The notes beneath the pieces were generated by a model. That model saw only the letters and a list, made by a program, of their open reading frames with translations. It was not told where the DNA came from and made no database searches. This document shows, one piece after another, positions 17,558 to 38,940 of a stretch of 38,940 nucleotides of DNA (position 1 is the stretch's first letter; each line of letters opens with the position of its first letter). The position numbers were made by a program, and so were the translations under genes. This DNA comes from an uncultured Bacilli bacterium (GTDB lineage: Bacteria > Bacillota_I > Bacilli_A > RFN20 > CAG-449), in the NCBI GenBank assembly GCA_944332225.1, contig CALVJO010000014.1:1-38940 (forward strand), given 5' to 3'.

Positions 17558-17584
17558 TGTAATGCATGTGCCGTCTTAGCTCAA
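17556..17584 (-). promoter_or_regulatory. Candidate promoter of the divergent membrane-protein gene inside tRNA-Thr
   Basis: On the minus strand, TTGAGC (17584-17579, the complement of the tRNA D-stem), a 17-bp spacer and TACAAT (17561-17556) precede the ATG at 17534. The spacing is ideal and the -10 differs from consensus at one base. The D-stem is a conserved tRNA sequence, so the -35 match may be coincidental. Confidence 0.4.
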
Positions 17585-17645
17585 CTGGCAGAGCAATCGA
17601 CTTGTAATCGATAGGTTGTTGGTTCGATTCCGATAGACGGCACCA
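17570..17645 (+). tRNA. tRNA-Thr (anticodon TGT), integration target
   Basis: A 76-nt cloverleaf: acceptor GCCGTCT/AGACGGC, D-arm GCTC...GAGC, anticodon stem ATCGA/TCGAT around CTTGTAA (anticodon TGT), T-arm GTTGG-TTCGATT-CCGAT, encoded A-CCA, then a T8 run. The last 17 bases (from the T-arm 3' strand through CCA) are part of the att core, so integration keeps the tRNA whole. Confidence 0.96.
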
Positions 17646-17958: not shown

Positions 17959-17960
17959 AT

Positions 17961-19076: not shown

Positions 19077-19077
19077 T

Positions 19078-20667: not shown

Positions 20668-20669
20668 AA

Positions 20670-22436: not shown

Positions 22437-22450
22437 ACTTACCCCTCCAG

Positions 22451-22678
22451 TTAAAATATGATTTCATCTTTAGAAACTAATATTTTGAATATATCTAAAT
22501 CCCATTCAGTAAAGAAATTTGTAATATTCGATAAATAGATCAATAAAGATAAAACTATAGCAACAACTACAAAAATAATTCCTTTAGTAACAGTAAAACC
22601 AGTTTTATAAAATATGATTCCAAGCAGCAACAAAAGTGCGATGGAACCAATAAATAAACATATTGTATAATTATTCAT
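22451..22678 (-). CDS. 75-aa two-helix membrane protein, coat-protein candidate, copy 1
   Basis: A first hydrophobic helix (about 5-25, LFIGSIALLLLLGIIFY) could act as a signal sequence and a second (about 33-53, GIIFVVVAIVLSLLIYL) as the membrane or virion helix. The tail is acidic and aromatic. Cleavage after the first helix would leave about 47 residues, in the size range of inovirus major coats. Against this, coats usually end basic. The ribosome site AAAGGAG is strong. It lies between a conserved stem-loop and the pIII-like gene, and a decayed copy of its start survives beyond attR. Confidence 0.55.
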   Translation of the reverse strand: MNNYTICLFIGSIALLLLLGIIFYKTGFTVTKGIIFVVVAIVLSLLIYLSNITNFFTEWDLDIFKILVSKDEIIF

Positions 22679-22732
22679 GCAAGTCTCCTTTCTTTTTTAC
22701 TTGATTATTTTCAAAAATTTCTTATTATATGG

Positions 22733-22793
22733 ATGTGGTTAGAGAAGCGTAGTTTTCCTAGGGAAACGGGGCTCGGCTCTAACCACATTTTTT
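22733..22793. repeat. Stem-loop A with GCGTAG/GCTCGGC blocks, copy 1
   Basis: A 12-bp stem ATGTGGTTAGAG (22733-22744) / CTCTAACCACAT (22777-22788). Inside are GCGTAG (22747-22752), a sub-hairpin GTTTTCC/GGGAAAC and GCTCGGC (22771-22777). A T6 run follows on the plus strand. On the coding (minus) strand it lies between the 120-aa gene stop and the 75-aa gene, without a U-run, so it is not a terminator for that operon. It shares its blocks with the structure at 27709-27790. Confidence 0.75.
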
Positions 22794-23154
22794 ATTGGTT
22801 AGAATCAATAATATTTTGAATTGTTTCTACGTCCTCTAGAGATCTAATCTTCATATTGTTTAATTCTTGTTTTCTAACATGACTTTTAGTCTTAAAGATT
22901 CTTTTTGACATATAGCTTTCTCTAGTATCGTTTTTATTAGGATTCTTTTTCAATTTGGTATAATTATGCCTATTTCTATTATGCGTAATAGGTAGCCTAG
23001 ACCATTCTTCATCAGTATATTTTACTTCCAGAGCTGGATGCTTACTATATGAGTCATAGTAAAATTTATGCTTTAAATTAAATATTCCTATCACAATTAA
23101 AGGAGTGAATGAAGCTAAGATTATAAATATGCAAGCGATGATAACAACAATCAT
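22792..23154 (-). CDS. Membrane protein with basic cytoplasmic tail, paralogue of the 127-aa gene, copy 1
   Basis: A 120-aa protein with an N-terminal helix (about 2-25) and then a strongly basic tail. Between residues 31 and 115 it aligns with the 127-aa protein encoded near the att site: FYYD, a Pro, WSRLP/WSRMS, a T/SH box, KNPNKNDTRESYMSKRIFKT versus KNKDGKSIYVSKSIKT, and a C-terminal helix with II. It is therefore a membrane-bound version of the same domain. The function is unknown; DNA binding or packaging at the membrane would fit the charge (inference). Confidence 0.7.
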   Translation of the reverse strand: MIVVIIACIFIILASFTPLIVIGIFNLKHKFYYDSYSKHPALEVKYTDEEWSRLPITHNRNRHNYTKLKKNPNKNDTRESYMSKRIFKTKSHVRKQELNNMKIRSLEDVETIQNIIDSNQ

Positions 23155-23169
23155 AAGTCGCCTCAGTTA

Positions 23170-24234
23170 TTAGTAAATTAATTCATCATCTGATGTGTTA
23201 ATTCCTGTTGGTTCTAAATCAAAAGTTGAAAAATCATAGTCAACATAAACATATATTTTTGCTGATGAAGATCCTTTAACAACAGTATCTTCATCTATTG
23301 TTAATGTTGCTTTATCTAGATTCATTCTAAAACCCAAATGCCCTGAACAATAATCTTTTAAAAATGCATGATAAGACGGCGCGTCATCATAATTAGATGA
23401 TACATCCCATATATCTTGAGCCGATGGCAATATCTCATTTAATTTATATTGATGATTTGAAATAGATGTAGTTATAGATTTTGAAAATAAATCTTCAAGG
23501 GCTTGGAAGGATTCTTGAATGAATTCCCAGTTATGGTAATCTTCAAAACTTCCTGATGAACCTACTTCTCCTGCTAAAACATTAACAGTTAAATCACTTG
23601 TATCTATAGTTAATTTACTCACATCTAATGATGAATAATCAAAGTCTAAAGTATAATCCGATACATGATTATCGTTTGAATAATCTAAGATGAGTTCTCT
23701 TATGTCTTGAGTAGAAGTGGCAAGAAATGGAGATCTAGAGTCACCATCATAGGAAAGATCCAGTAATTTCTTTTGATATTGACACGTGACAGTAGCTTTG
23801 ATGCTGGTATCTGCTAAGGATTGTATTTCAACTATGATTACCCTATTAAAAGCAGCTCCTCCAATATTAGTGACGGTTATAGTTTTAGTTTTCTCATTTT
23901 TCTCTACAGCTATGATGGCTGATGCGTCTGATTGATCATCTTGATAATATGATCTAACTGAAATTGATTCATTAACAGTTGATGCACTTGCTGGCTTTTC
24001 AAATGAATAAGTAAAAGATTGAACTACATTACCATTTTCTAAAACTTCAGTAGCAAGACGTTTCACTTTTAATCCTTGTTCTTCAATTTCAGTTTCTAAA
24101 TTATTTTCAATTTTATCTGTTTCATTGTTGGCAGGTCCATAATTAATTCTATTAGCGTAGCTGAATGCTGCTACTGCGCCTAAACCTAATAATCCTGATA
24201 AAATAAATGTAATAAAGCTTGATATTTTTCCCAT
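23170..24234 (-). CDS. Signal-anchored Ig-like surface protein (354 aa), copy 1
   Basis: N-terminal signal/anchor helix (about 7-28), then an acidic linker and an Ig-like beta domain (about 50-160). That domain aligns with the 321-aa neighbour: VK-L-T-VLENGNVVQSFTYSFEKP versus VKLLSAETLETGETVQTFSY, then TITVTNIGGAAFNRVIIVEI versus TITLTCNAAFDKVILVKL, then TVTCQYQKK versus TITCNYEKK. The C-terminal 190 residues are beta-rich and acidic. It is probably displayed outside the cell or on the virion. The start follows AAAGGAGG, which overlaps the stop of the 60-aa gene. No known family. Confidence 0.7.
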   Translation of the reverse strand: MGKISSFITFILSGLLGLGAVAAFSYANRINYGPANNETDKIENNLETEIEEQGLKVKRLATEVLENGNVVQSFTYSFEKPASASTVNESISVRSYYQDDQSDASAIIAVEKNEKTKTITVTNIGGAAFNRVIIVEIQSLADTSIKATVTCQYQKKLLDLSYDGDSRSPFLATSTQDIRELILDYSNDNHVSDYTLDFDYSSLDVSKLTIDTSDLTVNVLAGEVGSSGSFEDYHNWEFIQESFQALEDLFSKSITTSISNHQYKLNEILPSAQDIWDVSSNYDDAPSYHAFLKDYCSGHLGFRMNLDKATLTIDEDTVVKGSSSAKIYVYVDYDFSTFDLEPTGINTSDDELIY

Positions 24235-24248
24235 GTCATAAACCTCCT

Positions 24249-24431
24249 TTAAATTATCGTTAACTCTAAGTTATATGAGCTAGATAATTGATCTTCTTGA
24301 ATATCGTCTTGAGACGATGCTGGTTCTTGAACTGGTGTGTCAAAATTGATTTCTGCAGCCCTAAATGTTACAAGCCCTACGCAGGCTCCAAACAATAGAC
24401 CGCTTAAAAATAAAACTAATATTTTTCTCAT
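24249..24431 (-). CDS. 60-aa signal-anchored small protein, copy 1
   Basis: One hydrophobic helix (about 4-24, containing LLFGACVGLV) and an acidic, Ser/Gln-rich tail ending YNLELTII. Its N-terminus resembles the two flanking large proteins (LSGLLFGACVG...EINFDTP versus LSGLLGLGAVAAF...RINYGPA), so it looks like a miniature member of the same family without the Ig-like part. AGAGGAG precedes the ATG. A coat-protein role is conceivable from size but the acidic tail argues against it. Cys16 is not in a good lipobox. Confidence 0.6.
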   Translation of the reverse strand: MRKILVLFLSGLLFGACVGLVTFRAAEINFDTPVQEPASSQDDIQEDQLSSSYNLELTII

Positions 24432-24499
24432 TGTCTTCTCCTCTATTTTCTAATTAGTGTTAACTCTATGTTGACTAGATTAATTGGTGAGGTATTATT

Positions 24500-25465
24500 T
24501 TAGAAAATTACATTATCCGCGCCAGAAACATCAATTTCGGAAATATTTAAATTGAAATCTTCAATATTTAATTTTATGGAAAATTGAGGTTCACTATCAA
24601 AGCCTACAGTGTAAGAAAAATCTCCATCATGCATGGTAAATCCCCAATCGACAGCGTTTGAAAGATAGATAAGACCATTACTGGACTTTAAGTTTGCTCT
24701 ATCTTCACTTGTGGCTAATTCCCATAGCTCTTCAGATGTAGCAATTTGATGCTCGCCATTAAATATAGCAATTAATTTTTGCGATAAATTGCTACTAAAA
24801 GTATATGAATCTGCACCTTTAAAAGTTAAATCATCACCTGATTGAGTTTGATCCATGTATCCATTTGTATAATCATGATCAATCGTGTATTTTGAATATT
24901 CAAAAAAATCTGTTTCATTGATTAAATAGTCAAAAATATCAGAGCCTTCGCTAGCATCATCAAAAATAAATGTGAACGTTTGCCCTTCATGACCAATAAT
25001 TTTTTTCTCATAGTTACAAGTGATGGTAGCCGATGCTCCTCCACCATCGGCAGCAGTTAGCTTGACTAAAATAACTTTATCGAAGGCAGCGTTGCATGTT
25101 AAAGTGATGGTTTTTTCCGCGGTATCAATAGATGCTGTGACTTCGGTAGCTGCACCTCCATCTTGATATTCTACTGAGGTATTAATGTTTTGATTTGTAG
25201 CATTTGCTGGAGTTATTGTATATGAAAATGTTTGAACGGTTTCACCTGTTTCTAACGTCTCAGCAGATAATAACTTTACTGACATCTTATTGACTTCGGT
25301 TACTTCTGTTTCTAATCCATCGCCACTATCGGTATCTTCAATTTCATCGGCTTGACTAGTTCCATAGTTAATTCCAAAACCATAGGAAACACCTAAAGTA
25401 GCCCCAACACCTAAAGCGATGGAAGCTAATGATGCTAATAATAAGATTGTTGTTGATTTGTTCAT
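24500..25465 (-). CDS. Signal-anchored Ig-like surface protein (321 aa), copy 1
   Basis: Signal/anchor helix (about 7-30, LLLASLASIALGVGATLGV), then the motif INYGT shared with the 354-aa paralogue. An acidic linker and an Ig-like domain (about 55-160; TITPANATNQNINTSVEYQD resembles bacterial Ig-like repeats) follow, then an acidic beta-rich C-terminal domain ending GADNVIF. AAAAGGAG lies 8 nt upstream. After its TAA the same frame continues 18 codons to a TAG (24443-24499) and resembles the tail of the 60-aa protein, suggesting past duplication. Confidence 0.7.
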   Translation of the reverse strand: MNKSTTILLLASLASIALGVGATLGVSYGFGINYGTSQADEIEDTDSGDGLETEVTEVNKMSVKLLSAETLETGETVQTFSYTITPANATNQNINTSVEYQDGGAATEVTASIDTAEKTITLTCNAAFDKVILVKLTAADGGGASATITCNYEKKIIGHEGQTFTFIFDDASEGSDIFDYLINETDFFEYSKYTIDHDYTNGYMDQTQSGDDLTFKGADSYTFSSNLSQKLIAIFNGEHQIATSEELWELATSEDRANLKSSNGLIYLSNAVDWGFTMHDGDFSYTVGFDSEPQFSIKLNIEDFNLNISEIDVSGADNVIF

Positions 25466-25477
25466 AATTGTCTCCTT

Positions 25478-25798
25478 TTAATTTTCATCAAAGCTCACAT
25501 CATCGTCTCTAATTCCTTTTTTTAAATCATTCCTTTCGATGATAAACTTAATTAGTAATTCGCTTTGATTTTTTTCTAGATGGTCTTTTAAATCTTTTCT
25601 AGCAAGATTGATAATTTTGAAAAAAATATCAAAAATTAAATTTGCTTCAATCATCACAGATTGAGGAGGGCAAAATTTGCATCTTGTCCTGTCTTGGCAA
25701 ATATAGCAATTCCTTATTTTTAAATAATTTTTCTTATGCTCAGTTTTGCCATGTCTAGGTATTTTTAAATTAATTCTTAGATTTTCAATAAGTTTCAC
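25478..25798 (-). CDS. Small four-cysteine (zinc-ribbon-like) protein, copy 1
   Basis: A 106-aa basic protein with Cys31-x2-Cys34-x5-Cys40-x2-Cys43 (NCYICQDRTRCKFCPP), a likely zinc-binding knuckle, then a helical half (LIFDIFFKIINLARKDLKDH). It follows the replisome organizer at once, so a role in replication or single-strand DNA binding is plausible but unproven. The only canonical start, GTG at 25798, lies inside the ribosome-binding sequence AGGAGGTG. An ATT codon three codons later has the ideal spacing, so the real start may be non-canonical. Confidence 0.65.
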   Translation of the reverse strand: MKLIENLRINLKIPRHGKTEHKKNYLKIRNCYICQDRTRCKFCPPQSVMIEANLIFDIFFKIINLARKDLKDHLEKNQSELLIKFIIERNDLKKGIRDDDVSFDEN

Positions 25799-25801
25799 CT
25801 C

Positions 25802-26839
25802 CTAATTAAAGTCGCTTAAATAATCGTAGGAAGCTATTTTCATCTTTTCCTCGATATTTTCTTTATCAGTTTTTATTTCACCATTTAATGTCTTCTTTAA
25901 TAGGATTTCAAAGACATCAATAGACATGTCGTTTTTATGCTTCAAGAATGTCAAAAGATGTGATTCAATCACTGAAAATAATTTGTCTGGAGAAACATTC
26001 TCTTCGCTTACTATATTCTTCAGAACCTGCGTTATTTCGTTTATTCCTTGCTTTGATTTAATCAAGCCATGATCACATAAATAGTTAATTATTTTATCGA
26101 AAACTATGGCGCCAGAAAATATTTCATCTTCGATGATTTTATTAATTGATTTAATATAATAATCATTTTTATTTTTAATCGATTGGATATTAGTTCTACT
26201 TAATCTTGTGATGAAACAATCATTAGCTTTATTGAAATTTTTTAATCCGTAATCTGAAATTAAATTAGTTATGATAGATTCAAATTCAGCTTTTTCTTTA
26301 GAAGCTATGAATTTTGAATAAATTAATCCAGATAACGCCTCATCGATAGATGACGTTCCAATTAATTTATTTAAATTATCTAAATCTACTTCTTTCGAAG
26401 GATTATCTTCTTTTAATTTTTGTAATCGTTCTTGTGATTCTCTTTTAATCTTTCTCTTTTCATTTGTTTTCTCACTCTCAGTTTGAGTTAAATTTGGTAG
26501 ATCTGGAATAATTAAACAATCTACATCAATTATTACTAAATCTAATTCTTCTAAAGATTCAAGACATCTATGAACTATTTCATTATCAGAATCTTTATCT
26601 TGATTTGTGTTGAATCTAATTAAACGTCTTATAAAGTCGCTTGATATTGCTTTGTTTGCCCTTTCAGAATAAATAAAGCCATTGTTAGAAAGAGATTTTA
26701 AAATTAAATTTAGATAAACAAACTGGTAATCGATAGGGGAGTCTTCATTGTCTAAAGCTTTTTCTTTTAAGGCTTCCATCCGTTCAGATAAAAAGAATTG
26801 ATCATTTAATTGGATGAAATAATAATTTCTCTCTTTCAT
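25802..26839 (-). CDS. Phage replisome organizer (RepO/DnaD-like), copy 1
   Basis: A 345-aa replication initiator. The N-terminus (NYYFIQLNDQFFLSERMEAL ... YQFVYLNLILKSLSNNGFIY, then SSDFIRRLIRFN and a helix ending LDLVIID) matches the phage replisome organizer N-terminal winged-helix domain, which binds an origin and recruits the host helicase loader. A charged linker (about 120-155) and a helical C-terminal domain follow. It is the first gene of the long minus-strand unit, divergent from the repressor. AAAGG lies 7 nt before the ATG. Filamentous phages usually use rolling-circle Rep proteins, so this replication module is an unusual partner for a Zot-type ATPase. Confidence 0.75.
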   Translation of the reverse strand: MKERNYYFIQLNDQFFLSERMEALKEKALDNEDSPIDYQFVYLNLILKSLSNNGFIYSERANKAISSDFIRRLIRFNTNQDKDSDNEIVHRCLESLEELDLVIIDVDCLIIPDLPNLTQTESEKTNEKRKIKRESQERLQKLKEDNPSKEVDLDNLNKLIGTSSIDEALSGLIYSKFIASKEKAEFESIITNLISDYGLKNFNKANDCFITRLSRTNIQSIKNKNDYYIKSINKIIEDEIFSGAIVFDKIINYLCDHGLIKSKQGINEITQVLKNIVSEENVSPDKLFSVIESHLLTFLKHKNDMSIDVFEILLKKTLNGEIKTDKENIEEKMKIASYDYLSDFN

Positions 26840-26947
26840 AACAAGGCCTTTCTTAACGTTAAATACATTAACTAAGCCTAACTCTAGTGTTTTTTTTTTT
26901 TTTTTAAGGGTTTTATCGTTTTTTCTCTTAAAAGTTAAAATATTAAT
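26840..26947. promoter_or_regulatory. Divergent control region with T16 tract, copy 1
   Basis: 108 bp separate the organizer and repressor starts. The region holds the palindrome TTAACGTTAA (26853-26862), further TTAAC half-sites (about 26868), and an uninterrupted run of 16 T (26890-26905). It is the expected place for operators of the Cro/CI-type repressor. No convincing -35/-10 pair could be fixed in either direction. Confidence 0.55.
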
Positions 26948-27253
26948 ATGTTTAATGAAAAATTAAGAGAGTTAAGACTTAAAAACGGCCTATCACAGGT
27001 AGAATTATCAAAAATATTAAATATTTCTCAAACCTCGTATTCCCAGTGGGAGAGAGGAATTTGTGAACCAAATATAGAAACGTTAAAAAAGATAGCTAGA
27101 TATTTTAAAGTGTCTTTGGATATTCTGCTAGAATCCAATATTATTCCATTATCAATTGATCAATTAAAAATAGAGATTGAGAATCTAGATAGAAAACAAT
27201 TAAAGAATCTTTTATTAGAAATTATTGATGAGATTTTTTCTATTATCTTATAA
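26948..27253 (+). CDS. Cro/CI-type HTH repressor, copy 1
   Basis: A 101-aa XRE-family regulator: helix-turn-helix at about residues 3-58 (KLRELRLKNGLSQVELSKIL, ISQTSYSQWERGICEPN, LKKIARYFKVSLDILL) and a short helical C-terminal dimerisation part (IDQLKIEIENLDRKQLKNLL). It lacks a peptidase or LexA-like domain, so induction would not be by RecA-driven autocleavage. It is the only plus-strand gene of the element and probably represses the divergent organizer promoter. No Shine-Dalgarno is seen before the ATG (TATTAATATG), which may mean leaderless translation. Confidence 0.9.
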   Translation: MFNEKLRELRLKNGLSQVELSKILNISQTSYSQWERGICEPNIETLKKIARYFKVSLDILLESNIIPLSIDQLKIEIENLDRKQLKNLLLEIIDEIFSIIL

Positions 27254-27766
27254 GGCGTGGAAAAATATGATTTTTCCTACCCTAAATTCTTTAAATTTGC
27301 CTAAATAGTCATTTAGTCAAATTTTAAATATAAAGTTAGGGAAGGTTTTTGCCGAAAACAAATTCACTTTCAAGAATCCACATGTTCATTATTATCTTAT
27401 ATTCATCAGTCAAATATTATTTATTTTTATGACTATGACTATATCTATGTCAAAATTGAATTCCAATAAAACTGGTTTTTCTCACAACAAAAAGACGTTA
27501 TTAAACGTTTGATTTTTAAACTATGAGATAAACTAAATTATTAAAATTGACGGTTTAATTATTAAGTTTATCTCTATCTATATATCAAAATTTATTGTTA
27601 ATCCTATAACTATTTAAGTATGTTGACGGCATATTTATCTCAAATAGTCTAGGATTAAAGTAAATTTTATATCTTGACATAACAATAATCATTGTTAGAA
27701 TAAATGGTGCTAGGTGCGTAGATATTATTATCTATTCGATTTTGCACTTTGTGCACATTGATTAAT
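27254..27766. other. Gene-free stem-loop cluster, origin/packaging candidate, copy 1
   Basis: 513 bp between convergent gene ends, with no credible ORF. Stem-loops in order: GGAAAAAT/ATTTTTCC (27259-27277, repressor terminator candidate); CCCTAA/TTAGGG enclosing CTAAAT-AGTC-ATTTAG (27280-27341); a 50-bp inverted repeat with ends GAGATAAACT/AGTTTATCTC (27525-27574); a second long one with ends TTAATCCTA/TAGGATTAA and ACTATTT/AAATAGT (27598-27658); TAACAAT/ATTGTTA (27680-27697); TGCAC/GTGCA (27743-27755). The two long hairpins both carry TTGACGG at their tip. This is the most likely site of a replication origin and phage packaging signal. Confidence 0.6.
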
Positions 27767-27790
27767 TCAATGCTCGGCCCTAGCGTTTTT
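27709..27790. repeat. Stem-loop B with GCGTAG/GCTCGGC blocks, copy 1
   Basis: Stem GCTAGG (27709-27714) / CCTAGC (27779-27784) with GCGTAG (27716-27721) just inside the left arm and GCTCGGC (27772-27778) just inside the right, then a T5 run on the plus strand. The right part overlaps the last codons of the 127-aa gene. The stem sequence differs from structure A while the internal blocks are the same. Confidence 0.72.
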
Positions 27791-28150
27791 ATTTGCTTTT
27801 CTTTTTTTGTTTATGATTGAGTAAATAAACGCCTTGATTCGTCCCTTATCGGTTTCGGTTAAATGTGTTTTGTTATCCTTTTTCCTTTTACTAGAGATTG
27901 AACTAGTTTTTATAGATTTACTAACATAAATAGATTTTCCATCTTTATTTTTGGATGTTAACTCTATATATTTTCTTTTCTTTGCTGGAGAGGTAGTTGA
28001 ACTCATTCTAGACCATTTTCTTCCATTATTTCCAATTTGCAGCGATGAATGAATTTTGTGTTTAGGATTATTCATAGTTGCTAAATCATAATAAAATTCG
28101 CCCTTGTTAAATGTATCCTCATCGAATATGATGTCTGATTTTTTACTCAT
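27767..28150 (-). CDS. Basic 127-aa protein at the element end, paralogue of the 120-aa gene, copy 1
   Basis: A highly basic protein without a membrane helix: acidic start (DIIFDEDTFNKGEFYYD), then HKIHSSLQIGNNGRKWSRMS, YIELTSKNKDGKSIYVSKSI and a Lys/Arg-rich tail. It shares the FYYD/WSR/YVSK framework with the membrane-bound 120-aa protein. The family is not named. In the tandem array and the excised circle it follows the small att-spanning gene, whose stop TAA overlaps its ribosome site (TAAGGAGG). This downstream position is lost at attR. Confidence 0.7.
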   Translation of the reverse strand: MSKKSDIIFDEDTFNKGEFYYDLATMNNPKHKIHSSLQIGNNGRKWSRMSSTTSPAKKRKYIELTSKNKDGKSIYVSKSIKTSSISSKRKKDNKTHLTETDKGRIKAFIYSIINKKRKANKNARAEH

Positions 28151-28164
28151 TGTTTATTGCCTCC

Positions 28165-28500
28165 TTAGTCTCCGATAGACGGCACCATTTTTTTTAGAAT
28201 TTTATAGTTTACATTTTGTAATTTACAAATTTTTATATATTCATTTGGATCTTCTATTAATTCTCTTAGATTCCCAGTGATTAATTCTGTTCCTGTATAA
28301 TCTTGATCGCTTGCCTTTTTTAGTAAAACAAGCTGCTCTTTTGCTATTGATGGATTTATATCCCGATTTAAGTAATTTAGTAACAAATGATTTAAGATTG
28401 TAAAATAATATTTTTTAGCTTCAAAAAAATGTTTTAGTTCACCATAGATAATATTATGTTCACCATATTTAAATAATATTTGATAGTAATGTTTAGCCAT
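28165..28500 (-). CDS. Small att-spanning prophage protein, native form (copy 2)
   Basis: 111 aa from the ATG with GGAGG 7 nt upstream. Its last codons cross the 41-bp att core (KKMVPSIGD ending), and its stop lies six bases past the core, within the prophage right-end sequence. This is the form encoded by the circle. It is helical and Tyr/Lys-rich with no recognised domain. Co-transcription after the integrase and its location at the att site make a directionality factor or a lysogeny-linked protein worth testing, but no motif proves it. Confidence 0.7.
   Translation of the reverse strand: MAKHYYQILFKYGEHNIIYGELKHFFEAKKYYFTILNHLLLNYLNRDINPSIAKEQLVLLKKASDQDYTGTELITGNLRELIEDPNEYIKICKLQNVNYKILKKMVPSIGD
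28171..28211 (+). other. Internal att core (circle-type junction)
   Basis: Identical 41 bp to attL and attR, but with prophage DNA on both sides: the right end of copy 1 and the left end of copy 2. This is the junction expected in an excised circle, and it restores the reading of the small gene into the 127-aa gene. Confidence 0.93.
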
Positions 28501-28502
28501 AT

Positions 28503-29618
28503 TCATCCCTCCATTTCCTTAACTAGTTTTTCGATTAATTTATCGATTTTATTGTCTTTCTCTTTAGATTTTTTTAAATAGTATTCATCAGTTACTTTAA
28601 TTGAATCGTGTCCAAGATATAAAGCTATCTCATCGATGCTGATTCCTCTTTCTTTTAGATGAGTTACTAATGATCTTCTAAATTTATGGGGAGTTAAATC
28701 TTTGTCAAGACTCTTTAGATGTCTTCTAAAAGTATTTTCATGAATCGGTATTGAGTGATTATCGTTTTTATTCTTATTTCCTAAAGAGAAAAATAAGTAA
28801 TCATCAGACTTTAAATGATGACTTTTGATATGCCTCTTTAATAAATTTGCATATTCATCAGATAAAGAATTAATTCTATCGCTTTTTTTGGTTTTTGGAG
28901 GAATAACAATAAAACCTCCGTTTCCAGTTTTAAAATTTACTGATTGATAATTTTCAATGGTTTTATCCTTGAATGAAATAGAATCTACTTTTAGACCTAG
29001 AAGCTCTGATAATCTATAGCCATAGATGAATAAGGTGAGCAAAGCAAGTTTATAATATTCAGATTTTTCCTTCTTTATAACGGATTTTATTTTCTCTAGT
29101 TCTAATATTTGAGGTTTAGAAACCATTCTAGTTATAGAATAATCCTTAAATAAGGGAAGAATGAAAATATATGAATAATAATATAGATAGCTTTGATAGA
29201 TAAAATAGAAGAAACGTTTTAAGAAATTTAATTTTTTATTTTTAGTCGCATAATTATTATTTTCATTTTTAATCATTTCCCAAGCCTTATCAGCATCTAT
29301 TTTTGTAAGGTTGATAATTAATGATTCATTAGGAAAATACTTAAAGTAAGAATGATTCATCGCGCGTTCTATTTCTCGGAAATATGTTATTTTAGTAAAC
29401 TTTTGAAGATAATTTTTAAATAGGATAAGACCATCTCGATAGGTTAGATTATTGAGAATAAGAGATCGATTATTGCTATTTGGATAAATAGAATAGATTA
29501 AATCTTGCTCTTTACTCAAGGTTTCTTCATAGGAAAGAAATCCATCTTTGATATGATTTGTCCCATCAATAGTTAGCTTATAATAATATGTTTTGTTAGT
29601 AGAGTTATAATATATCAT
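28503..29618 (-). CDS. int: Tyrosine recombinase (integrase), copy 2
   Basis: Same 371-aa protein as at 17961-19076. In this copy the gene reads toward the internal att junction rather than the tRNA, so its transcript continues into the copy-1 127-aa gene. Confidence 0.93.
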   Translation of the reverse strand: MIYYNSTNKTYYYKLTIDGTNHIKDGFLSYEETLSKEQDLIYSIYPNSNNRSLILNNLTYRDGLILFKNYLQKFTKITYFREIERAMNHSYFKYFPNESLIINLTKIDADKAWEMIKNENNNYATKNKKLNFLKRFFYFIYQSYLYYYSYIFILPLFKDYSITRMVSKPQILELEKIKSVIKKEKSEYYKLALLTLFIYGYRLSELLGLKVDSISFKDKTIENYQSVNFKTGNGGFIVIPPKTKKSDRINSLSDEYANLLKRHIKSHHLKSDDYLFFSLGNKNKNDNHSIPIHENTFRRHLKSLDKDLTPHKFRRSLVTHLKERGISIDEIALYLGHDSIKVTDEYYLKKSKEKDNKIDKLIEKLVKEMEG

Positions 29619-29619
29619 T

Positions 29620-31209
29620 CTATGCACCTGCCTCTAATGCTTTTGGTGAGTTAATCATGGCTTTAAATCTATCTTCATTAGATTCATATAATGAAGAAAT
29701 TTCTTTTAAATCTTGATCAGAATGAATTTCACTTTCATTCATCAAAAAATCATAAAAGTCAGAATATTCGCATTTTCGATAATTCCCATAACACCAAGAT
29801 AAAGGGAAAATTAGAGTTAATTCCTCAGCTAGATTAGGATCATCTAAAGACGCTAGCTTAGTAGAGTAGAGAACTCGATATTTTAAAAATGCTGAAGCAG
29901 TTAATTTTTTTCTTTTATCCCATAATTTATATAATTTTTCTTTATATGGATTGTTTCCATGCAAGTATTTTGATTCTCCATCAATTTCTTTATTCCTGTT
30001 TTTTCTAGCTTTTTTAAACATTTTTTTAGTTATTCTATTTTCCTTTTTTTGTAAAATTCTTTGCTGTAAAGGTAAATTTCCTACGATGGATGATGAGATA
30101 ATTCTAATGTAAGAATTTGCTAGCTCTCGAATTAGAGGTGCGATTCTTGATGTATTTTGCGATGAAGAAATATAATACGCGGTTTCATTTTTAAGTTGTC
30201 TAAATAATCTTAAAACCATATCTTGCCCTAAAAGCGATAGTTTACGATAATCTGATGTGTTTTTATAATTTGATAAGGCTTTTTCGTCTTCAATGAATAA
30301 TGAATATGATGGAATATAGAATTTTTTTAGTGATTCTTTGTCTTTGATATTAAAATAATCATCAGATAAATCGTAGTTATAATTATTAGTTATTCTTGAA
30401 TAGAGTTTATAATTTGAGAACACATAATTATTTCTTAATGATGCAATGTAGGCTTCAACATATGTTTTTAATATGTTGTTATTTGGAGTTAAGGAAACAT
30501 AATCAGTTGAAACATTGTTTTTTGAAAATGCATCGTTAATCATCTTGTTTTTATATAAATGATATATGATTTCTTTTTCTGAATAATTATCTTGATATAG
30601 CTTTTTTACAGTATCTCTAAGTGGATTAAAATCAAAATAATAGAACCGTTTTTCAATTGATAATATTGTTTCCTCTATTTTTTCTTGAAATAAGATTGTT
30701 CGATAATGAGAATAACCATTTATGAAAGACGTTTTACCTCCTCCTACTGACGCCTCGATCATTACAAGGTAAGAGAACTTTTTATCAATAATATCATGAG
30801 TTTTGAAACATTTGGCTAATAGATCATATCTATAAGATAATTGTTTTCTAAGCTTTGGGGAGAAGATTCTTTGAAACAAATTATATTTATAAGGTGCAGG
30901 ATAAATATTATATATTGAATGTTTTAACTGATATTTTTCCACGAATCTATATATAATTCGTTTCACAAATTCAATTAAATGCACGATTAGACCAAGCTTA
31001 ACTACTAAATTGAATAATATTTTCAATGATTTATATACAAGTAAACATATATTTTTAAACAGTTTAAATAGTGATTGGAAAAAATTAACCGCGGCATTCC
31101 AAAAGTTGAAAAAGATTAGTAATAAAGATAATATGGCTAGAAGTCCAATTACTATAGAATAACGTTGAATTAAATCGATTAGTATTTGAAAAAATTCCTC
31201 TAAAGTCAT
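29620..31209 (-). CDS. Zot/pI-like assembly ATPase, copy 2
   Basis: Same 529-aa sequence as the copy-1 gene, including the Walker A with Ala in place of the first Gly and the N-terminal membrane segment. Confidence 0.78.
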   Translation of the reverse strand: MTLEEFFQILIDLIQRYSIVIGLLAILSLLLIFFNFWNAAVNFFQSLFKLFKNICLLVYKSLKILFNLVVKLGLIVHLIEFVKRIIYRFVEKYQLKHSIYNIYPAPYKYNLFQRIFSPKLRKQLSYRYDLLAKCFKTHDIIDKKFSYLVMIEASVGGGKTSFINGYSHYRTILFQEKIEETILSIEKRFYYFDFNPLRDTVKKLYQDNYSEKEIIYHLYKNKMINDAFSKNNVSTDYVSLTPNNNILKTYVEAYIASLRNNYVFSNYKLYSRITNNYNYDLSDDYFNIKDKESLKKFYIPSYSLFIEDEKALSNYKNTSDYRKLSLLGQDMVLRLFRQLKNETAYYISSSQNTSRIAPLIRELANSYIRIISSSIVGNLPLQQRILQKKENRITKKMFKKARKNRNKEIDGESKYLHGNNPYKEKLYKLWDKRKKLTASAFLKYRVLYSTKLASLDDPNLAEELTLIFPLSWCYGNYRKCEYSDFYDFLMNESEIHSDQDLKEISSLYESNEDRFKAMINSPKALEAGA

Positions 31210-31211
31210 AA

Positions 31212-32978
31212 TTACTTATTTTGTTCTTTCTTTTTAAATATGGAAATAATCTTACCAATTAAGCTAACGACAATTAAGCTTATAATTATCCAAAAGATAA
31301 GCTTGATAACATTAAAAGCATCAGAGAACCAATCTACAATTGGGTCAAACAATGTATCTAACCAGTTTAAATTAGTTGATCCGCCTCCTGAATTCTCTAA
31401 ATCTTTTGGTTCTACTGATACAGTTGCTTTAATAACGTCTCCATCAGAATTGACTAATGTCATCTCAGTTGCTTCGACATCCATATAATAATTCATTGTA
31501 AATTTATATATTTCATATCCAGTATAAGTAATATAAATAGGAAGGGTAGTTCCCGGGGAAGTTGTTGTTTCAAGGAATGTCTTTTTTTCTAATCCAGAAT
31601 CATCTAAATACTCAATAAATTCTTGATAATACCCCGTAGGATCAACGTTATCACTTGCTGTTTCATAAGTGAAGACTAGATTACTATAGTTATATTCAAA
31701 TTCATCAAAATTAACGATGTAATAGTTATCATTAGGCATGTAAGAAGAAGCAAAATCGATAATATCTTCCAATTCCTTAAATGCATCCTTAAATTCATTG
31801 GCAGTTTGTATTTTCTTCCAGGTAAATTTCGTGCTTCCGATATTCGTTGTTACATTAGTTGGTTCGATGGTTGAATAGGTGTAAGGTAAAGTATATATAT
31901 CGTTTCGTCTTACTTGCTCTTTAGTGTATCCATAGAATCTATCTATCTCTCCTTCATCATTTAAGTGATAATACTGAGCATGCGGTAAAAGATAATTATT
32001 ATACCTGTCACAATTAGAATCAATTTCACCTGTTGTAGTATCAGTTTCAAAGTAATTGTAGTGATCAACATTAGATATGATATTGTCAGCGTATGCGGTC
32101 AATAGCATCTCTTTCCATCTTAAGGATATATCAGCTATTTCATAATCTGACCAACCCAAAGGCAAGCTAAAAGAATAGAAAAACTGATCTTCTAAACTAT
32201 CCGAATTGTATCCAAACAAATTAGAAACTGATTCTATAAATTGCTCCCACCAGTCATCCGTGTCAAAACGATATGACCAAACATGGGGATCCTCTAATTC
32301 AATTATTGTCGTATATGATGAAAAATCTTGCCTGTAATAAGTAGTTTCGTTTATGTTAGTTTGTTTATTGTAACGTGCTTTTACTAATGATAAGTCATCA
32401 TTTGATAATGTTTTATCGAAGTTAAAATAAGATGTATTTGATTTTAAATTATTAGTGCTGGATATAATATTAATTTCAAAATTTAACTGATCATTACTAT
32501 CAATAAACTCTTTAATTTCATCCGATAATTTATTTTTATATGTTAATCTATAATAGCCTTCATCATTTGAATCGATTATTCCTAATTCGATATTTTCTAA
32601 TGCAATTGCTTCTTTATTTTGGCTGGTTATTGATCCAGTTAAGGAGAATGAAGTTTCTAACTTTAAAGGAAAGTAAATATAAAAGAGTGAAACATAATCA
32701 TCATTAAAAGAAGGGAGAAAATTAATTATAGTTGGATTGATCAATTGATCTGAGGAAAAATTATATTTTTGATAATCAAAATTAAATGATTGGAGATCTT
32801 CTTCGATTGTAGTATTTATTTTAAACTGCTCTTGAAATTCATCTTGCTTGGCTTTATTGATTATCTGTTCTCTTATATTGATTAAATTAGATGAAATACC
32901 TCCCATGGTTGTAACAGGGGATAAAAATGAAGAAGAAATCAGTAGAAATATATTTGAATAAAGAAATAACTTAGTCAT
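31212..32978 (-). CDS. pIII-like surface/attachment protein, copy 2
   Basis: Same 588 aa as in copy 1. The absence of any difference in this long exported domain, which diverges fast in phages, argues for very recent duplication. Confidence 0.65.
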   Translation of the reverse strand: MTKLFLYSNIFLLISSSFLSPVTTMGGISSNLINIREQIINKAKQDEFQEQFKINTTIEEDLQSFNFDYQKYNFSSDQLINPTIINFLPSFNDDYVSLFYIYFPLKLETSFSLTGSITSQNKEAIALENIELGIIDSNDEGYYRLTYKNKLSDEIKEFIDSNDQLNFEINIISSTNNLKSNTSYFNFDKTLSNDDLSLVKARYNKQTNINETTYYRQDFSSYTTIIELEDPHVWSYRFDTDDWWEQFIESVSNLFGYNSDSLEDQFFYSFSLPLGWSDYEIADISLRWKEMLLTAYADNIISNVDHYNYFETDTTTGEIDSNCDRYNNYLLPHAQYYHLNDEGEIDRFYGYTKEQVRRNDIYTLPYTYSTIEPTNVTTNIGSTKFTWKKIQTANEFKDAFKELEDIIDFASSYMPNDNYYIVNFDEFEYNYSNLVFTYETASDNVDPTGYYQEFIEYLDDSGLEKKTFLETTTSPGTTLPIYITYTGYEIYKFTMNYYMDVEATEMTLVNSDGDVIKATVSVEPKDLENSGGGSTNLNWLDTLFDPIVDWFSDAFNVIKLIFWIIISLIVVSLIGKIISIFKKKEQNK

Positions 32979-32992
32979 ACTTACCCCTCCAG

Positions 32993-33220
32993 TTAAAATA
33001 TGATTTCATCTTTAGAAACTAATATTTTGAATATATCTAAATCCCATTCAGTAAAGAAATTTGTAATATTCGATAAATAGATCAATAAAGATAAAACTAT
33101 AGCAACAACTACAAAAATAATTCCTTTAGTAACAGTAAAACCAGTTTTATAAAATATGATTCCAAGCAGCAACAAAAGTGCGATGGAACCAATAAATAAA
33201 CATATTGTATAATTATTCAT
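32993..33220 (-). CDS. 75-aa two-helix membrane protein, copy 2
   Basis: Same as 22451-22678. It is the intact reference for the decayed fragment at 38758-38865. Confidence 0.55.
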   Translation of the reverse strand: MNNYTICLFIGSIALLLLLGIIFYKTGFTVTKGIIFVVVAIVLSLLIYLSNITNFFTEWDLDIFKILVSKDEIIF

Positions 33221-33274
33221 GCAAGTCTCCTTTCTTTTTTACTTGATTATTTTCAAAAATTTCTTATTATATGG

Positions 33275-33335
33275 ATGTGGTTAGAGAAGCGTAGTTTTCC
33301 TAGGGAAACGGGGCTCGGCTCTAACCACATTTTTT
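33275..33335. repeat. Stem-loop A, copy 2
   Basis: Identical to 22733-22793: 12-bp stem, GCGTAG and GCTCGGC blocks, plus-strand T6. Confidence 0.75.
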
Positions 33336-33696
33336 ATTGGTTAGAATCAATAATATTTTGAATTGTTTCTACGTCCTCTAGAGATCTAATCTTCATATTG
33401 TTTAATTCTTGTTTTCTAACATGACTTTTAGTCTTAAAGATTCTTTTTGACATATAGCTTTCTCTAGTATCGTTTTTATTAGGATTCTTTTTCAATTTGG
33501 TATAATTATGCCTATTTCTATTATGCGTAATAGGTAGCCTAGACCATTCTTCATCAGTATATTTTACTTCCAGAGCTGGATGCTTACTATATGAGTCATA
33601 GTAAAATTTATGCTTTAAATTAAATATTCCTATCACAATTAAAGGAGTGAATGAAGCTAAGATTATAAATATGCAAGCGATGATAACAACAATCAT
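33334..33696 (-). CDS. Membrane protein with basic tail (120 aa), copy 2
   Basis: Same product as 22792-23154; its stop codon abuts stem-loop A as in copy 1. Confidence 0.7.
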   Translation of the reverse strand: MIVVIIACIFIILASFTPLIVIGIFNLKHKFYYDSYSKHPALEVKYTDEEWSRLPITHNRNRHNYTKLKKNPNKNDTRESYMSKRIFKTKSHVRKQELNNMKIRSLEDVETIQNIIDSNQ

Positions 33697-33711
33697 AAGT
33701 CGCCTCAGTTA

Positions 33712-34776
33712 TTAGTAAATTAATTCATCATCTGATGTGTTAATTCCTGTTGGTTCTAAATCAAAAGTTGAAAAATCATAGTCAACATAAACATATATTT
33801 TTGCTGATGAAGATCCTTTAACAACAGTATCTTCATCTATTGTTAATGTTGCTTTATCTAGATTCATTCTAAAACCCAAATGCCCTGAACAATAATCTTT
33901 TAAAAATGCATGATAAGACGGCGCGTCATCATAATTAGATGATACATCCCATATATCTTGAGCCGATGGCAATATCTCATTTAATTTATATTGATGATTT
34001 GAAATAGATGTAGTTATAGATTTTGAAAATAAATCTTCAAGGGCTTGGAAGGATTCTTGAATGAATTCCCAGTTATGGTAATCTTCAAAACTTCCTGATG
34101 AACCTACTTCTCCTGCTAAAACATTAACAGTTAAATCACTTGTATCTATAGTTAATTTACTCACATCTAATGATGAATAATCAAAGTCTAAAGTATAATC
34201 CGATACATGATTATCGTTTGAATAATCTAAGATGAGTTCTCTTATGTCTTGAGTAGAAGTGGCAAGAAATGGAGATCTAGAGTCACCATCATAGGAAAGA
34301 TCCAGTAATTTCTTTTGATATTGACACGTGACAGTAGCTTTGATGCTGGTATCTGCTAAGGATTGTATTTCAACTATGATTACCCTATTAAAAGCAGCTC
34401 CTCCAATATTAGTGACGGTTATAGTTTTAGTTTTCTCATTTTTCTCTACAGCTATGATGGCTGATGCGTCTGATTGATCATCTTGATAATATGATCTAAC
34501 TGAAATTGATTCATTAACAGTTGATGCACTTGCTGGCTTTTCAAATGAATAAGTAAAAGATTGAACTACATTACCATTTTCTAAAACTTCAGTAGCAAGA
34601 CGTTTCACTTTTAATCCTTGTTCTTCAATTTCAGTTTCTAAATTATTTTCAATTTTATCTGTTTCATTGTTGGCAGGTCCATAATTAATTCTATTAGCGT
34701 AGCTGAATGCTGCTACTGCGCCTAAACCTAATAATCCTGATAAAATAAATGTAATAAAGCTTGATATTTTTCCCAT
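33712..34776 (-). CDS. Signal-anchored Ig-like surface protein (354 aa), copy 2
   Basis: Same product as 23170-24234. Confidence 0.7.
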   Translation of the reverse strand: MGKISSFITFILSGLLGLGAVAAFSYANRINYGPANNETDKIENNLETEIEEQGLKVKRLATEVLENGNVVQSFTYSFEKPASASTVNESISVRSYYQDDQSDASAIIAVEKNEKTKTITVTNIGGAAFNRVIIVEIQSLADTSIKATVTCQYQKKLLDLSYDGDSRSPFLATSTQDIRELILDYSNDNHVSDYTLDFDYSSLDVSKLTIDTSDLTVNVLAGEVGSSGSFEDYHNWEFIQESFQALEDLFSKSITTSISNHQYKLNEILPSAQDIWDVSSNYDDAPSYHAFLKDYCSGHLGFRMNLDKATLTIDEDTVVKGSSSAKIYVYVDYDFSTFDLEPTGINTSDDELIY

Positions 34777-34790
34777 GTCATAAACCTCCT

Positions 34791-34973
34791 TTAAATTATC
34801 GTTAACTCTAAGTTATATGAGCTAGATAATTGATCTTCTTGAATATCGTCTTGAGACGATGCTGGTTCTTGAACTGGTGTGTCAAAATTGATTTCTGCAG
34901 CCCTAAATGTTACAAGCCCTACGCAGGCTCCAAACAATAGACCGCTTAAAAATAAAACTAATATTTTTCTCAT
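34791..34973 (-). CDS. 60-aa signal-anchored small protein, copy 2
   Basis: Same product as 24249-24431. Confidence 0.6.
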   Translation of the reverse strand: MRKILVLFLSGLLFGACVGLVTFRAAEINFDTPVQEPASSQDDIQEDQLSSSYNLELTII

Positions 34974-35041
34974 TGTCTTCTCCTCTATTTTCTAATTAGT
35001 GTTAACTCTATGTTGACTAGATTAATTGGTGAGGTATTATT

Positions 35042-36007
35042 TTAGAAAATTACATTATCCGCGCCAGAAACATCAATTTCGGAAATATTTAAATTGAAAT
35101 CTTCAATATTTAATTTTATGGAAAATTGAGGTTCACTATCAAAGCCTACAGTGTAAGAAAAATCTCCATCATGCATGGTAAATCCCCAATCGACAGCGTT
35201 TGAAAGATAGATAAGACCATTACTGGACTTTAAGTTTGCTCTATCTTCACTTGTGGCTAATTCCCATAGCTCTTCAGATGTAGCAATTTGATGCTCGCCA
35301 TTAAATATAGCAATTAATTTTTGCGATAAATTGCTACTAAAAGTATATGAATCTGCACCTTTAAAAGTTAAATCATCACCTGATTGAGTTTGATCCATGT
35401 ATCCATTTGTATAATCATGATCAATCGTGTATTTTGAATATTCAAAAAAATCTGTTTCATTGATTAAATAGTCAAAAATATCAGAGCCTTCGCTAGCATC
35501 ATCAAAAATAAATGTGAACGTTTGCCCTTCATGACCAATAATTTTTTTCTCATAGTTACAAGTGATGGTAGCCGATGCTCCTCCACCATCGGCAGCAGTT
35601 AGCTTGACTAAAATAACTTTATCGAAGGCAGCGTTGCATGTTAAAGTGATGGTTTTTTCCGCGGTATCAATAGATGCTGTGACTTCGGTAGCTGCACCTC
35701 CATCTTGATATTCTACTGAGGTATTAATGTTTTGATTTGTAGCATTTGCTGGAGTTATTGTATATGAAAATGTTTGAACGGTTTCACCTGTTTCTAACGT
35801 CTCAGCAGATAATAACTTTACTGACATCTTATTGACTTCGGTTACTTCTGTTTCTAATCCATCGCCACTATCGGTATCTTCAATTTCATCGGCTTGACTA
35901 GTTCCATAGTTAATTCCAAAACCATAGGAAACACCTAAAGTAGCCCCAACACCTAAAGCGATGGAAGCTAATGATGCTAATAATAAGATTGTTGTTGATT
36001 TGTTCAT
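35042..36007 (-). CDS. Signal-anchored Ig-like surface protein (321 aa), copy 2
   Basis: Same product as 24500-25465, including the 18-codon in-frame continuation after its stop. Confidence 0.7.
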   Translation of the reverse strand: MNKSTTILLLASLASIALGVGATLGVSYGFGINYGTSQADEIEDTDSGDGLETEVTEVNKMSVKLLSAETLETGETVQTFSYTITPANATNQNINTSVEYQDGGAATEVTASIDTAEKTITLTCNAAFDKVILVKLTAADGGGASATITCNYEKKIIGHEGQTFTFIFDDASEGSDIFDYLINETDFFEYSKYTIDHDYTNGYMDQTQSGDDLTFKGADSYTFSSNLSQKLIAIFNGEHQIATSEELWELATSEDRANLKSSNGLIYLSNAVDWGFTMHDGDFSYTVGFDSEPQFSIKLNIEDFNLNISEIDVSGADNVIF

Positions 36008-36019
36008 AATTGTCTCCTT

Positions 36020-36340
36020 TTAATTTTCATCAAAGCTCACATCATCGTCTCTAATTCCTTTTTTTAAATCATTCCTTTCGATGATAAACTTAATTAGTAA
36101 TTCGCTTTGATTTTTTTCTAGATGGTCTTTTAAATCTTTTCTAGCAAGATTGATAATTTTGAAAAAAATATCAAAAATTAAATTTGCTTCAATCATCACA
36201 GATTGAGGAGGGCAAAATTTGCATCTTGTCCTGTCTTGGCAAATATAGCAATTCCTTATTTTTAAATAATTTTTCTTATGCTCAGTTTTGCCATGTCTAG
36301 GTATTTTTAAATTAATTCTTAGATTTTCAATAAGTTTCAC
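36020..36340 (-). CDS. Four-cysteine (zinc-ribbon-like) protein, copy 2
   Basis: Same product and same unusual start context (GTG inside AGGAGGTG) as 25478-25798. Confidence 0.65.
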   Translation of the reverse strand: MKLIENLRINLKIPRHGKTEHKKNYLKIRNCYICQDRTRCKFCPPQSVMIEANLIFDIFFKIINLARKDLKDHLEKNQSELLIKFIIERNDLKKGIRDDDVSFDEN

Positions 36341-36343
36341 CTC

Positions 36344-37381
36344 CTAATTAAAGTCGCTTAAATAATCGTAGGAAGCTATTTTCATCTTTTCCTCGATATT
36401 TTCTTTATCAGTTTTTATTTCACCATTTAATGTCTTCTTTAATAGGATTTCAAAGACATCAATAGACATGTCGTTTTTATGCTTCAAGAATGTCAAAAGA
36501 TGTGATTCAATCACTGAAAATAATTTGTCTGGAGAAACATTCTCTTCGCTTACTATATTCTTCAGAACCTGCGTTATTTCGTTTATTCCTTGCTTTGATT
36601 TAATCAAGCCATGATCACATAAATAGTTAATTATTTTATCGAAAACTATGGCGCCAGAAAATATTTCATCTTCGATGATTTTATTAATTGATTTAATATA
36701 ATAATCATTTTTATTTTTAATCGATTGGATATTAGTTCTACTTAATCTTGTGATGAAACAATCATTAGCTTTATTGAAATTTTTTAATCCGTAATCTGAA
36801 ATTAAATTAGTTATGATAGATTCAAATTCAGCTTTTTCTTTAGAAGCTATGAATTTTGAATAAATTAATCCAGATAACGCCTCATCGATAGATGACGTTC
36901 CAATTAATTTATTTAAATTATCTAAATCTACTTCTTTCGAAGGATTATCTTCTTTTAATTTTTGTAATCGTTCTTGTGATTCTCTTTTAATCTTTCTCTT
37001 TTCATTTGTTTTCTCACTCTCAGTTTGAGTTAAATTTGGTAGATCTGGAATAATTAAACAATCTACATCAATTATTACTAAATCTAATTCTTCTAAAGAT
37101 TCAAGACATCTATGAACTATTTCATTATCAGAATCTTTATCTTGATTTGTGTTGAATCTAATTAAACGTCTTATAAAGTCGCTTGATATTGCTTTGTTTG
37201 CCCTTTCAGAATAAATAAAGCCATTGTTAGAAAGAGATTTTAAAATTAAATTTAGATAAACAAACTGGTAATCGATAGGGGAGTCTTCATTGTCTAAAGC
37301 TTTTTCTTTTAAGGCTTCCATCCGTTCAGATAAAAAGAATTGATCATTTAATTGGATGAAATAATAATTTCTCTCTTTCAT
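36344..37381 (-). CDS. Phage replisome organizer, copy 2
   Basis: Same 345 aa as 25802-26839. Confidence 0.75.
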   Translation of the reverse strand: MKERNYYFIQLNDQFFLSERMEALKEKALDNEDSPIDYQFVYLNLILKSLSNNGFIYSERANKAISSDFIRRLIRFNTNQDKDSDNEIVHRCLESLEELDLVIIDVDCLIIPDLPNLTQTESEKTNEKRKIKRESQERLQKLKEDNPSKEVDLDNLNKLIGTSSIDEALSGLIYSKFIASKEKAEFESIITNLISDYGLKNFNKANDCFITRLSRTNIQSIKNKNDYYIKSINKIIEDEIFSGAIVFDKIINYLCDHGLIKSKQGINEITQVLKNIVSEENVSPDKLFSVIESHLLTFLKHKNDMSIDVFEILLKKTLNGEIKTDKENIEEKMKIASYDYLSDFN

Positions 37382-37489
37382 AACAAGGCCTTTCTTAACG
37401 TTAAATACATTAACTAAGCCTAACTCTAGTGTTTTTTTTTTTTTTTTAAGGGTTTTATCGTTTTTTCTCTTAAAAGTTAAAATATTAAT
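37382..37489. promoter_or_regulatory. Divergent control region with T16 tract, copy 2
   Basis: Same sequence as 26840-26947. The homopolymer is also 16 T long here (37432-37447), although such runs often vary between copies. Confidence 0.55.
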
Positions 37490-37795
37490 ATGTTTAATGA
37501 AAAATTAAGAGAGTTAAGACTTAAAAACGGCCTATCACAGGTAGAATTATCAAAAATATTAAATATTTCTCAAACCTCGTATTCCCAGTGGGAGAGAGGA
37601 ATTTGTGAACCAAATATAGAAACGTTAAAAAAGATAGCTAGATATTTTAAAGTGTCTTTGGATATTCTGCTAGAATCCAATATTATTCCATTATCAATTG
37701 ATCAATTAAAAATAGAGATTGAGAATCTAGATAGAAAACAATTAAAGAATCTTTTATTAGAAATTATTGATGAGATTTTTTCTATTATCTTATAA
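37490..37795 (+). CDS. Cro/CI-type HTH repressor, copy 2
   Basis: Same 101 aa as 26948-27253. Two repressor genes in one lysogen would raise repressor dosage. Confidence 0.9.
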   Translation: MFNEKLRELRLKNGLSQVELSKILNISQTSYSQWERGICEPNIETLKKIARYFKVSLDILLESNIIPLSIDQLKIEIENLDRKQLKNLLLEIIDEIFSIIL

Positions 37796-38308
37796 GGCGT
37801 GGAAAAATATGATTTTTCCTACCCTAAATTCTTTAAATTTGCCTAAATAGTCATTTAGTCAAATTTTAAATATAAAGTTAGGGAAGGTTTTTGCCGAAAA
37901 CAAATTCACTTTCAAGAATCCACATGTTCATTATTATCTTATATTCATCAGTCAAATATTATTTATTTTTATGACTATGACTATATCTATGTCAAAATTG
38001 AATTCCAATAAAACTGGTTTTTCTCACAACAAAAAGACGTTATTAAACGTTTGATTTTTAAACTATGAGATAAACTAAATTATTAAAATTGACGGTTTAA
38101 TTATTAAGTTTATCTCTATCTATATATCAAAATTTATTGTTAATCCTATAACTATTTAAGTATGTTGACGGCATATTTATCTCAAATAGTCTAGGATTAA
38201 AGTAAATTTTATATCTTGACATAACAATAATCATTGTTAGAATAAATGGTGCTAGGTGCGTAGATATTATTATCTATTCGATTTTGCACTTTGTGCACAT
38301 TGATTAAT
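37796..38308. other. Gene-free stem-loop cluster, copy 2
   Basis: Same as 27254-27766; the two TTGACGG-tipped hairpins are at 38067-38116 and 38140-38200. Confidence 0.6.
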
Positions 38309-38332
38309 TCAATGCTCGGCCCTAGCGTTTTT
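38251..38332. repeat. Stem-loop B, copy 2
   Basis: Same as 27709-27790. Confidence 0.72.
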
Positions 38333-38692
38333 ATTTGCTTTTCTTTTTTTGTTTATGATTGAGTAAATAAACGCCTTGATTCGTCCCTTATCGGTTTCGG
38401 TTAAATGTGTTTTGTTATCCTTTTTCCTTTTACTAGAGATTGAACTAGTTTTTATAGATTTACTAACATAAATAGATTTTCCATCTTTATTTTTGGATGT
38501 TAACTCTATATATTTTCTTTTCTTTGCTGGAGAGGTAGTTGAACTCATTCTAGACCATTTTCTTCCATTATTTCCAATTTGCAGCGATGAATGAATTTTG
38601 TGTTTAGGATTATTCATAGTTGCTAAATCATAATAAAATTCGCCCTTGTTAAATGTATCCTCATCGAATATGATGTCTGATTTTTTACTCAT
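38309..38692 (-). CDS. Basic 127-aa protein at attR, copy 2
   Basis: Same protein as 27767-28150. Here the upstream partner gene is replaced by chromosomal flank beyond attR, so unless a promoter exists in that flank this copy is probably silent. Confidence 0.65.
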   Translation of the reverse strand: MSKKSDIIFDEDTFNKGEFYYDLATMNNPKHKIHSSLQIGNNGRKWSRMSSTTSPAKKRKYIELTSKNKDGKSIYVSKSIKTSSISSKRKKDNKTHLTETDKGRIKAFIYSIINKKRKANKNARAEH

Positions 38693-38712
38693 TGTTTATT
38701 GCCTCCTTAGTC

Positions 38713-38753
38713 TCCGATAGACGGCACCATTTTTTTTAGAATTTTATAGTTTA
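38713..38753 (+). other. attR, 41-bp core
   Basis: Same 41 bases as attL. The left flank is the prophage right end (CTTAGTC) and the right flank diverges immediately (ATTAAGAAAA instead of CATTTTG), marking the end of the array. Confidence 0.92.
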
Positions 38754-38754
38754 A

Positions 38755-38865
38755 TTAAGAAAATAATTCATTTAGTAACTGTAAAACACATTTATAAAAT
38801 ATGATTACAAGCAGAAACAAATGCGCGATGGAATCAATAAATAAACATATTGTATAATTATTCAT
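38755..38865 (-). pseudogene. Decayed copy of the 75-aa gene beyond attR
   Basis: Positions 38760-38865 align with the first 105 or so bases of the 75-aa prophage gene (22575-22678), with roughly a dozen substitutions and small indels. The frame begins identically (MNNYTICLFI), diverges to DSIAHLFLLVIIFYK, shifts by one base after codon 25 and stops after 36 codons. The strong ribosome site of the intact gene is not preserved. It looks like a relic of an older related prophage at the same tRNA. Confidence 0.8.
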
Positions 38866-38940
38866 AGTTACTATTCACCGAAGAAAAAGCAAAAAAACAT
38901 AATTGAACAAATAAAACAATTTATTCACCAGGAAAAATAA

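Follow-up and report, generated by a model that had tools for sequence, protein, structure and literature searches.

Immediately beyond the right attachment site (attR) of a 10.5-kb integrated element, at a tRNA-Thr gene of an uncultured Bacilli bacterium, lies a decayed piece of a related element. This relic is best explained, with a probability of about 0.8, as what is left of an older and diverged element at this tRNA, which would have been mostly deleted and later split by an insertion sequence (IS). The window, that is, the whole stretch of 38,940 nucleotides that was analysed, is the entire contig C14 of a 1.33-Mb genome in 48 contigs (G000), and the comparison within the genus covered three genomes, one per species (G000 and the sister species G001 and G002). 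Exact end sequences of up to 77 bp are common to contigs of the G000 assembly, which would be typical of short reads assembled with k = 77. The coordinates of the features are collected in Table 1.

Extent and decay of the relic

The first-pass annotation had noticed that about 105 bp outside the array resemble the 5' part of the 75-amino acid (aa) gene of the element, with scattered changes and a frameshift, and the alignments bear this out. Positions 38760-38865 align with 22572-22678 of the element (106 versus 107 bases) at 91% identity, the repeat search recovered 38783-38865 as a 90% copy of 22596-22678, and the whole-genome search returned this half of the relic with E = 3e-34. The reading frame is broken by a three-base cluster of indels with a net change of -1, and a separate substitution turns a codon of the original frame into a TGA stop. 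Substitutions at codon positions 1, 2 and 3 number 1, 3 and 3, respectively, small counts in which no third-position bias is seen. The relic begins 6 bp past the attR core, in the element's own orientation, with the gene on the minus strand. Its homology reaches past the ATG of the 75-aa gene, and the match within the window ends early because the IS starts at 38867 and halts the contig. Thus, the feature annotated at 38755-38865 is a real relic, but it continues past the window end, and the last bases of the window (38867-38940) are an IS terminus and not the flanking chromosome.

As the same annotation had proposed, looking past position 38940 yielded more of the remnant, although no second att core. 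The right half of the relic occupies positions 85-254 of the G000 contig C4, past the opposite end of the IS; with the element as the whole-genome query, C4:73-254 matches element positions 22668-22851 at 84%. When the IS and one copy of its target-site duplication (TSD) are omitted, the joined relic aligns with the element in an unbroken 281 columns, with 243 identical (88% of the ungapped ones) and 5 gap columns; the score is 365, whereas 300 shuffles reached 38 at most. It covers codons 1 to about 36 of the 75-aa gene, the hairpin-bearing intergenic region and some 20 codons at the 3' end of the 120-aa gene. The hairpin is retained (C4:134-198, z = -4.8), altered from GCTCGG in the element to GCTTAG. 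Moreover, the two relic halves are the only other matches of the whole 10.5-kb element in the genome, which rules out that the fragment belongs to an unrelated, intact chromosomal gene family.

Regarding the continuation of the chromosome, from 10.8 kb onwards C4 shows synteny with the sequences that flank attR on the outside in G002 (contig C7) and G001 (contig C2), indicating that it is the true right neighbour of C14. A HipB-type antitoxin gene, luxS and others lie between the relic and the syntenic part. In C4:1-20000, the best match to the att core is 23/41, at background level, and no other remnant of an older element was found there.

The IS that separates both halves is present in several copies. 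The repeat that closes the window also terminates contigs C13, C46 and C23, is found on both ends of C6 and recurs close to the end of C36. The first 76 bp of contig C4 close with CGGTGAATAGTAAC, the same terminus in inverted form, and TATTCATA comes next, while in the window TATTCATA directly precedes GTTACTATTCACCG; with inverted ends and TATTCATA on both contigs, the repeat behaves as an IS with an 8-bp target duplication. There are 7 left and at least 9 right IS ends, with GTTACTATTCACCGA at both ends and 8-bp TSDs, and the pairing of the 8-bp flanks gave exact and unique partners for C14/C4, C46/C37, C6/C35, C23/C31 and C36/C26. Matching TSDs were thus obtained by script for five of the seven left ends, and a sixth pair, C13/C3 (TATAAATA), was recognized by eye. 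The interior of the IS is collapsed and absent from the assembled contigs examined, and its terminus is without a match in G001 and G002, the matches elsewhere being only short and weak.

Table 1. Positions of the att sites, the element copies, the relic and the IS in the window.
Feature	Position	Strand	Evidence and remarks
tRNA-Thr (TGT), integration target	17570..17645	+	ARAGORN; Rfam tRNA, 69 bits
att core at attL, 3' end of the tRNA plus 24 bp	17629..17669	+	41-bp direct repeat
Element copy 1, 10,542 bp	17629..28170		Repeat search, ORFs, protein-family searches
Element segment matched by the relic: beginning of the 75-aa gene, hairpin between the genes, end of the 120-aa gene	22572..22852	-	Whole-genome search, alignment
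Element copy 2, identical to copy 1	28171..38712		Repeat and whole-genome searches; 77-bp contig-end overlaps; copy number not provable from such an assembly
att core at attR, right end of the array	38713..38753	+	41-bp direct repeat
Left half of the relic, 75-aa pseudogene, about codons 1-36, with frameshift and stop	38760..38866	-	91% identity, E = 3e-34; alignment and translation
8-bp target-site duplication TATTCATA	38859..38866		Partner at C4:77-84
Terminus of the multi-copy IS, inverted repeat GTTACTATTCACCGA	38867..38940	+	Other end at C4:1-76

The element and its relatives at the same tRNA

The present element encodes a tyrosine integrase, a 529-aa P-loop protein, proteins of 588, 75, 120, 354, 60, 321, 106 and 345 aa and an HTH protein, and the 41-bp core occurs in three copies, at 17629, 28171 and 38713. 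As short-read data cannot separate identical 10.5-kb copies, "two copies" means only that element-core-element junctions are present in the reads, and the apparent tandem duplication (28171-38712) may be the assembly's rendering of a circular form, tandem and circular arrangements both fitting. An ORF of 113 aa on the minus strand of the element (17581-17964 and 28165-28506) terminates within the att core, and at attL it continues antisense into the tRNA, reaching 127 aa; since it reads through the core there, integration alters its C-terminus. The element also contains two strongly folded hairpins on the plus strand, at 22729-22790 and 27698-27792 (z = -5.8 and -3.5). Both carry GCGTAG...GCTCGG across an internal loop and are followed by T-runs; the second sits behind TTGACA-16-TAGAAT with TG. 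They are possible candidates for small RNAs, origins or packaging signals and had no match in Rfam; a search of viral contigs with the hairpin pattern was set aside, as its 10 hits are about the chance level that we estimate for a collection of that size.

No homologues of the element were found in IMG/VR, among the INPHARED phages or in the plasmid collection, the latter searched with a 341-bp DNA query, and in the protein search the 529-aa protein turned up in four other species, all within the same uncultured Bacilli family, and nowhere else. Going by the databases searched, the element is a candidate for an undescribed phage or element family. The PHROG markers in it are the integrase and a replisome-organiser-like protein, with no others. 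The 529-aa protein has a Walker A motif (VGGGKTS) and N-terminal membrane helices, without a Pfam hit to Zot or any other family, and its predicted fold, of low confidence (pLDDT 61), gave no significant viral structural match. There are also more distant relatives, from two further species, on stretches that bear other tRNAs as well (tRNA-Gly and tRNA-Thr GGT). In addition, the start of the window (positions 1-77) falls within a tRNA-Leu gene, and near the corresponding tRNA-Leu of G002 there is an integrase-like match (C28:32478-32785 and 33672-33754), so this gene is likely a second tRNA target.

Relatives are present at the same tRNA-Thr in the sister species. In G002, contig C28 carries the left half of a related element adjoining this tRNA, with the integrase and the 529-aa protein both 52% identical, and contig C7 carries the right half of a related element, with homologues of 80, 349 and 348 aa, up to the att core. 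Beyond this attR core follow 118 bp (core included) that are an 85% copy of the left end of the G002 element; past the core, the score is 95, whereas shuffles reach at most 34, and such a copy is absent from the equivalent place in G001 (score 20). It is what the left end of an older element would leave, a footprint analogous to the relic. The contig ends that would be expected to meet inside the G002 element (C28:1-103 and C7:1-103) differ by 10%, which suggests at least two diverged versions in the genome or in a strain mixture. Meanwhile, contig C16 of G001 breaks off in a G002-like attL, and contig C2 of G001 opens with 77 bp identical to the right end of the G002 element, plus the core. 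These end fragments at the tRNA-Thr indicate that an element is or was present in G001, its body missing from the assembly. Directly past this att core, G001 has a type II CRISPR-Cas locus (C2:470-6609), whose genes, named from their translations, are a Cas9-like protein of 1439 aa, a Cas1 split in two, Cas2 and a Csn2-like protein. A weak 29-bp match in contig C2 of G002 was discarded, as no further homology surrounds it.

Origin of the relic

The proposed course of events begins with an older relative of the present element, about 88% identical in the surviving part, which would formerly have stood beside the tRNA-Thr in the orientation that the integrase imposes. It would have been almost wholly deleted, leaving a 281-bp middle piece by the 3' end of the tRNA that then decayed. 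Into this remnant the multi-copy IS would have inserted, duplicating 8 bp and splitting it, and the present element would have integrated via the tRNA 3' end, the order of these two last events not being fixed by the data. When integration takes place at the 3' end of a tRNA, the old chromosomal flank remains just outside attR; thus, entry of the present element through this end would place the older remnant just beyond attR, where it now lies. That the older element itself entered by an integrase at this tRNA is suggested by the position and orientation of the relic and by the sister species. Against this account, a central fragment abutting the core requires a deletion of ~4.9 kb ending within ~6 bp of the core, plus a second one, C4:1-20000 shows neither an att core nor any further remnant, and the single genome of the species shows neither an empty site nor an intact older element. 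The short sequence TATAG, common to the core and the element close to the relic's left boundary, was considered as a recombination site and dropped for being too short.

The first-pass annotation had already attributed the fragment to a deleted, diverged older element at the same tRNA or to illegitimate recombination. The homology, the orientation and the distance of 6 bp from the core support the former; the word "must" was too strong, as entry by an integrase at this tRNA is deduced from position, orientation and the sister species. Illegitimate recombination could have copied a piece of a related element to the tRNA flank without any integration there, in agreement with the survival of a central piece alone, lacking the left end, the integrase and a second core of the older element. 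This route is nevertheless improbable, because the orientation and the position beside the core, together with the relatives that both sister species have at this tRNA, one of them with a footprint of its own, make serial integration the simpler account.

The relic could also be a deletion derivative or satellite with little beyond the att core and the hairpin region, the latter as a replication or packaging signal, integrated in trans by the integrase of a helper. Such an origin would account for a middle segment that abuts the core, the relic starting 6 bp from it and being centred on the strongly folded intergenic hairpin; however, the far side of the relic has no second core, truncated coding ends are retained and the hairpin itself is changed, which makes this origin very improbable. 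Derivation from the present array, as an incomplete, truncated copy of it, would agree with the locus and orientation of the relic but is scarcely credible, as its divergence of ~12%, beside two copies that are 100% identical and an att core identical in 41/41 positions, argues strongly against a recent partial copy of that array. Serial integration at the tRNA-Thr, with nearly complete loss of the earlier element, is therefore preferred. The first-pass view of the locus as a repeated target is supported beyond the window: at this tRNA-Thr, G002 has a related element together with a left-end footprint of its own, and G001 retains element ends.

Known systems and significance

A comparable arrangement is known from Mycobacterium abscessus T36, where tandem prophages at a tRNA-Thr arise via superinfection at a resident att site (PMC9934374). 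In both cases, the second phage or element uses a resident att site beside a tRNA-Thr, and the arrays have common core sequences; the present case differs in that the older partner is a 281-bp, IS-split pseudogene remnant and in that the element, at 10.5 kb, is small and its family undescribed. Inovirus prophages also show tandem integration and att sites at tRNAs (PMC6813254), and the element resembles them in its size class, the integrase at a tRNA, the P-loop membrane protein, the small membrane proteins and the tandem copies. Unlike in those prophages, the 529-aa protein has no Zot hit, and the element is only a possible member of the inoviruses.

Repeated invasion of this tRNA-Thr would, in itself, be ordinary, as successive prophages and their remnants at a tRNA are well-known biology. 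In practical terms, the end of a short-read contig can be bridged by the target duplications of an IS. Regarding the organisms, whose gut habitat is suggested by the isolate labels (e.g., "Lapin") of related metagenome-assembled genomes of uncultured Bacilli, the significance lies in a family of small integrating elements, absent from the phage, viral and plasmid collections searched, whose members settle and decay time and again at a single tRNA-Thr throughout a genus of these bacteria.
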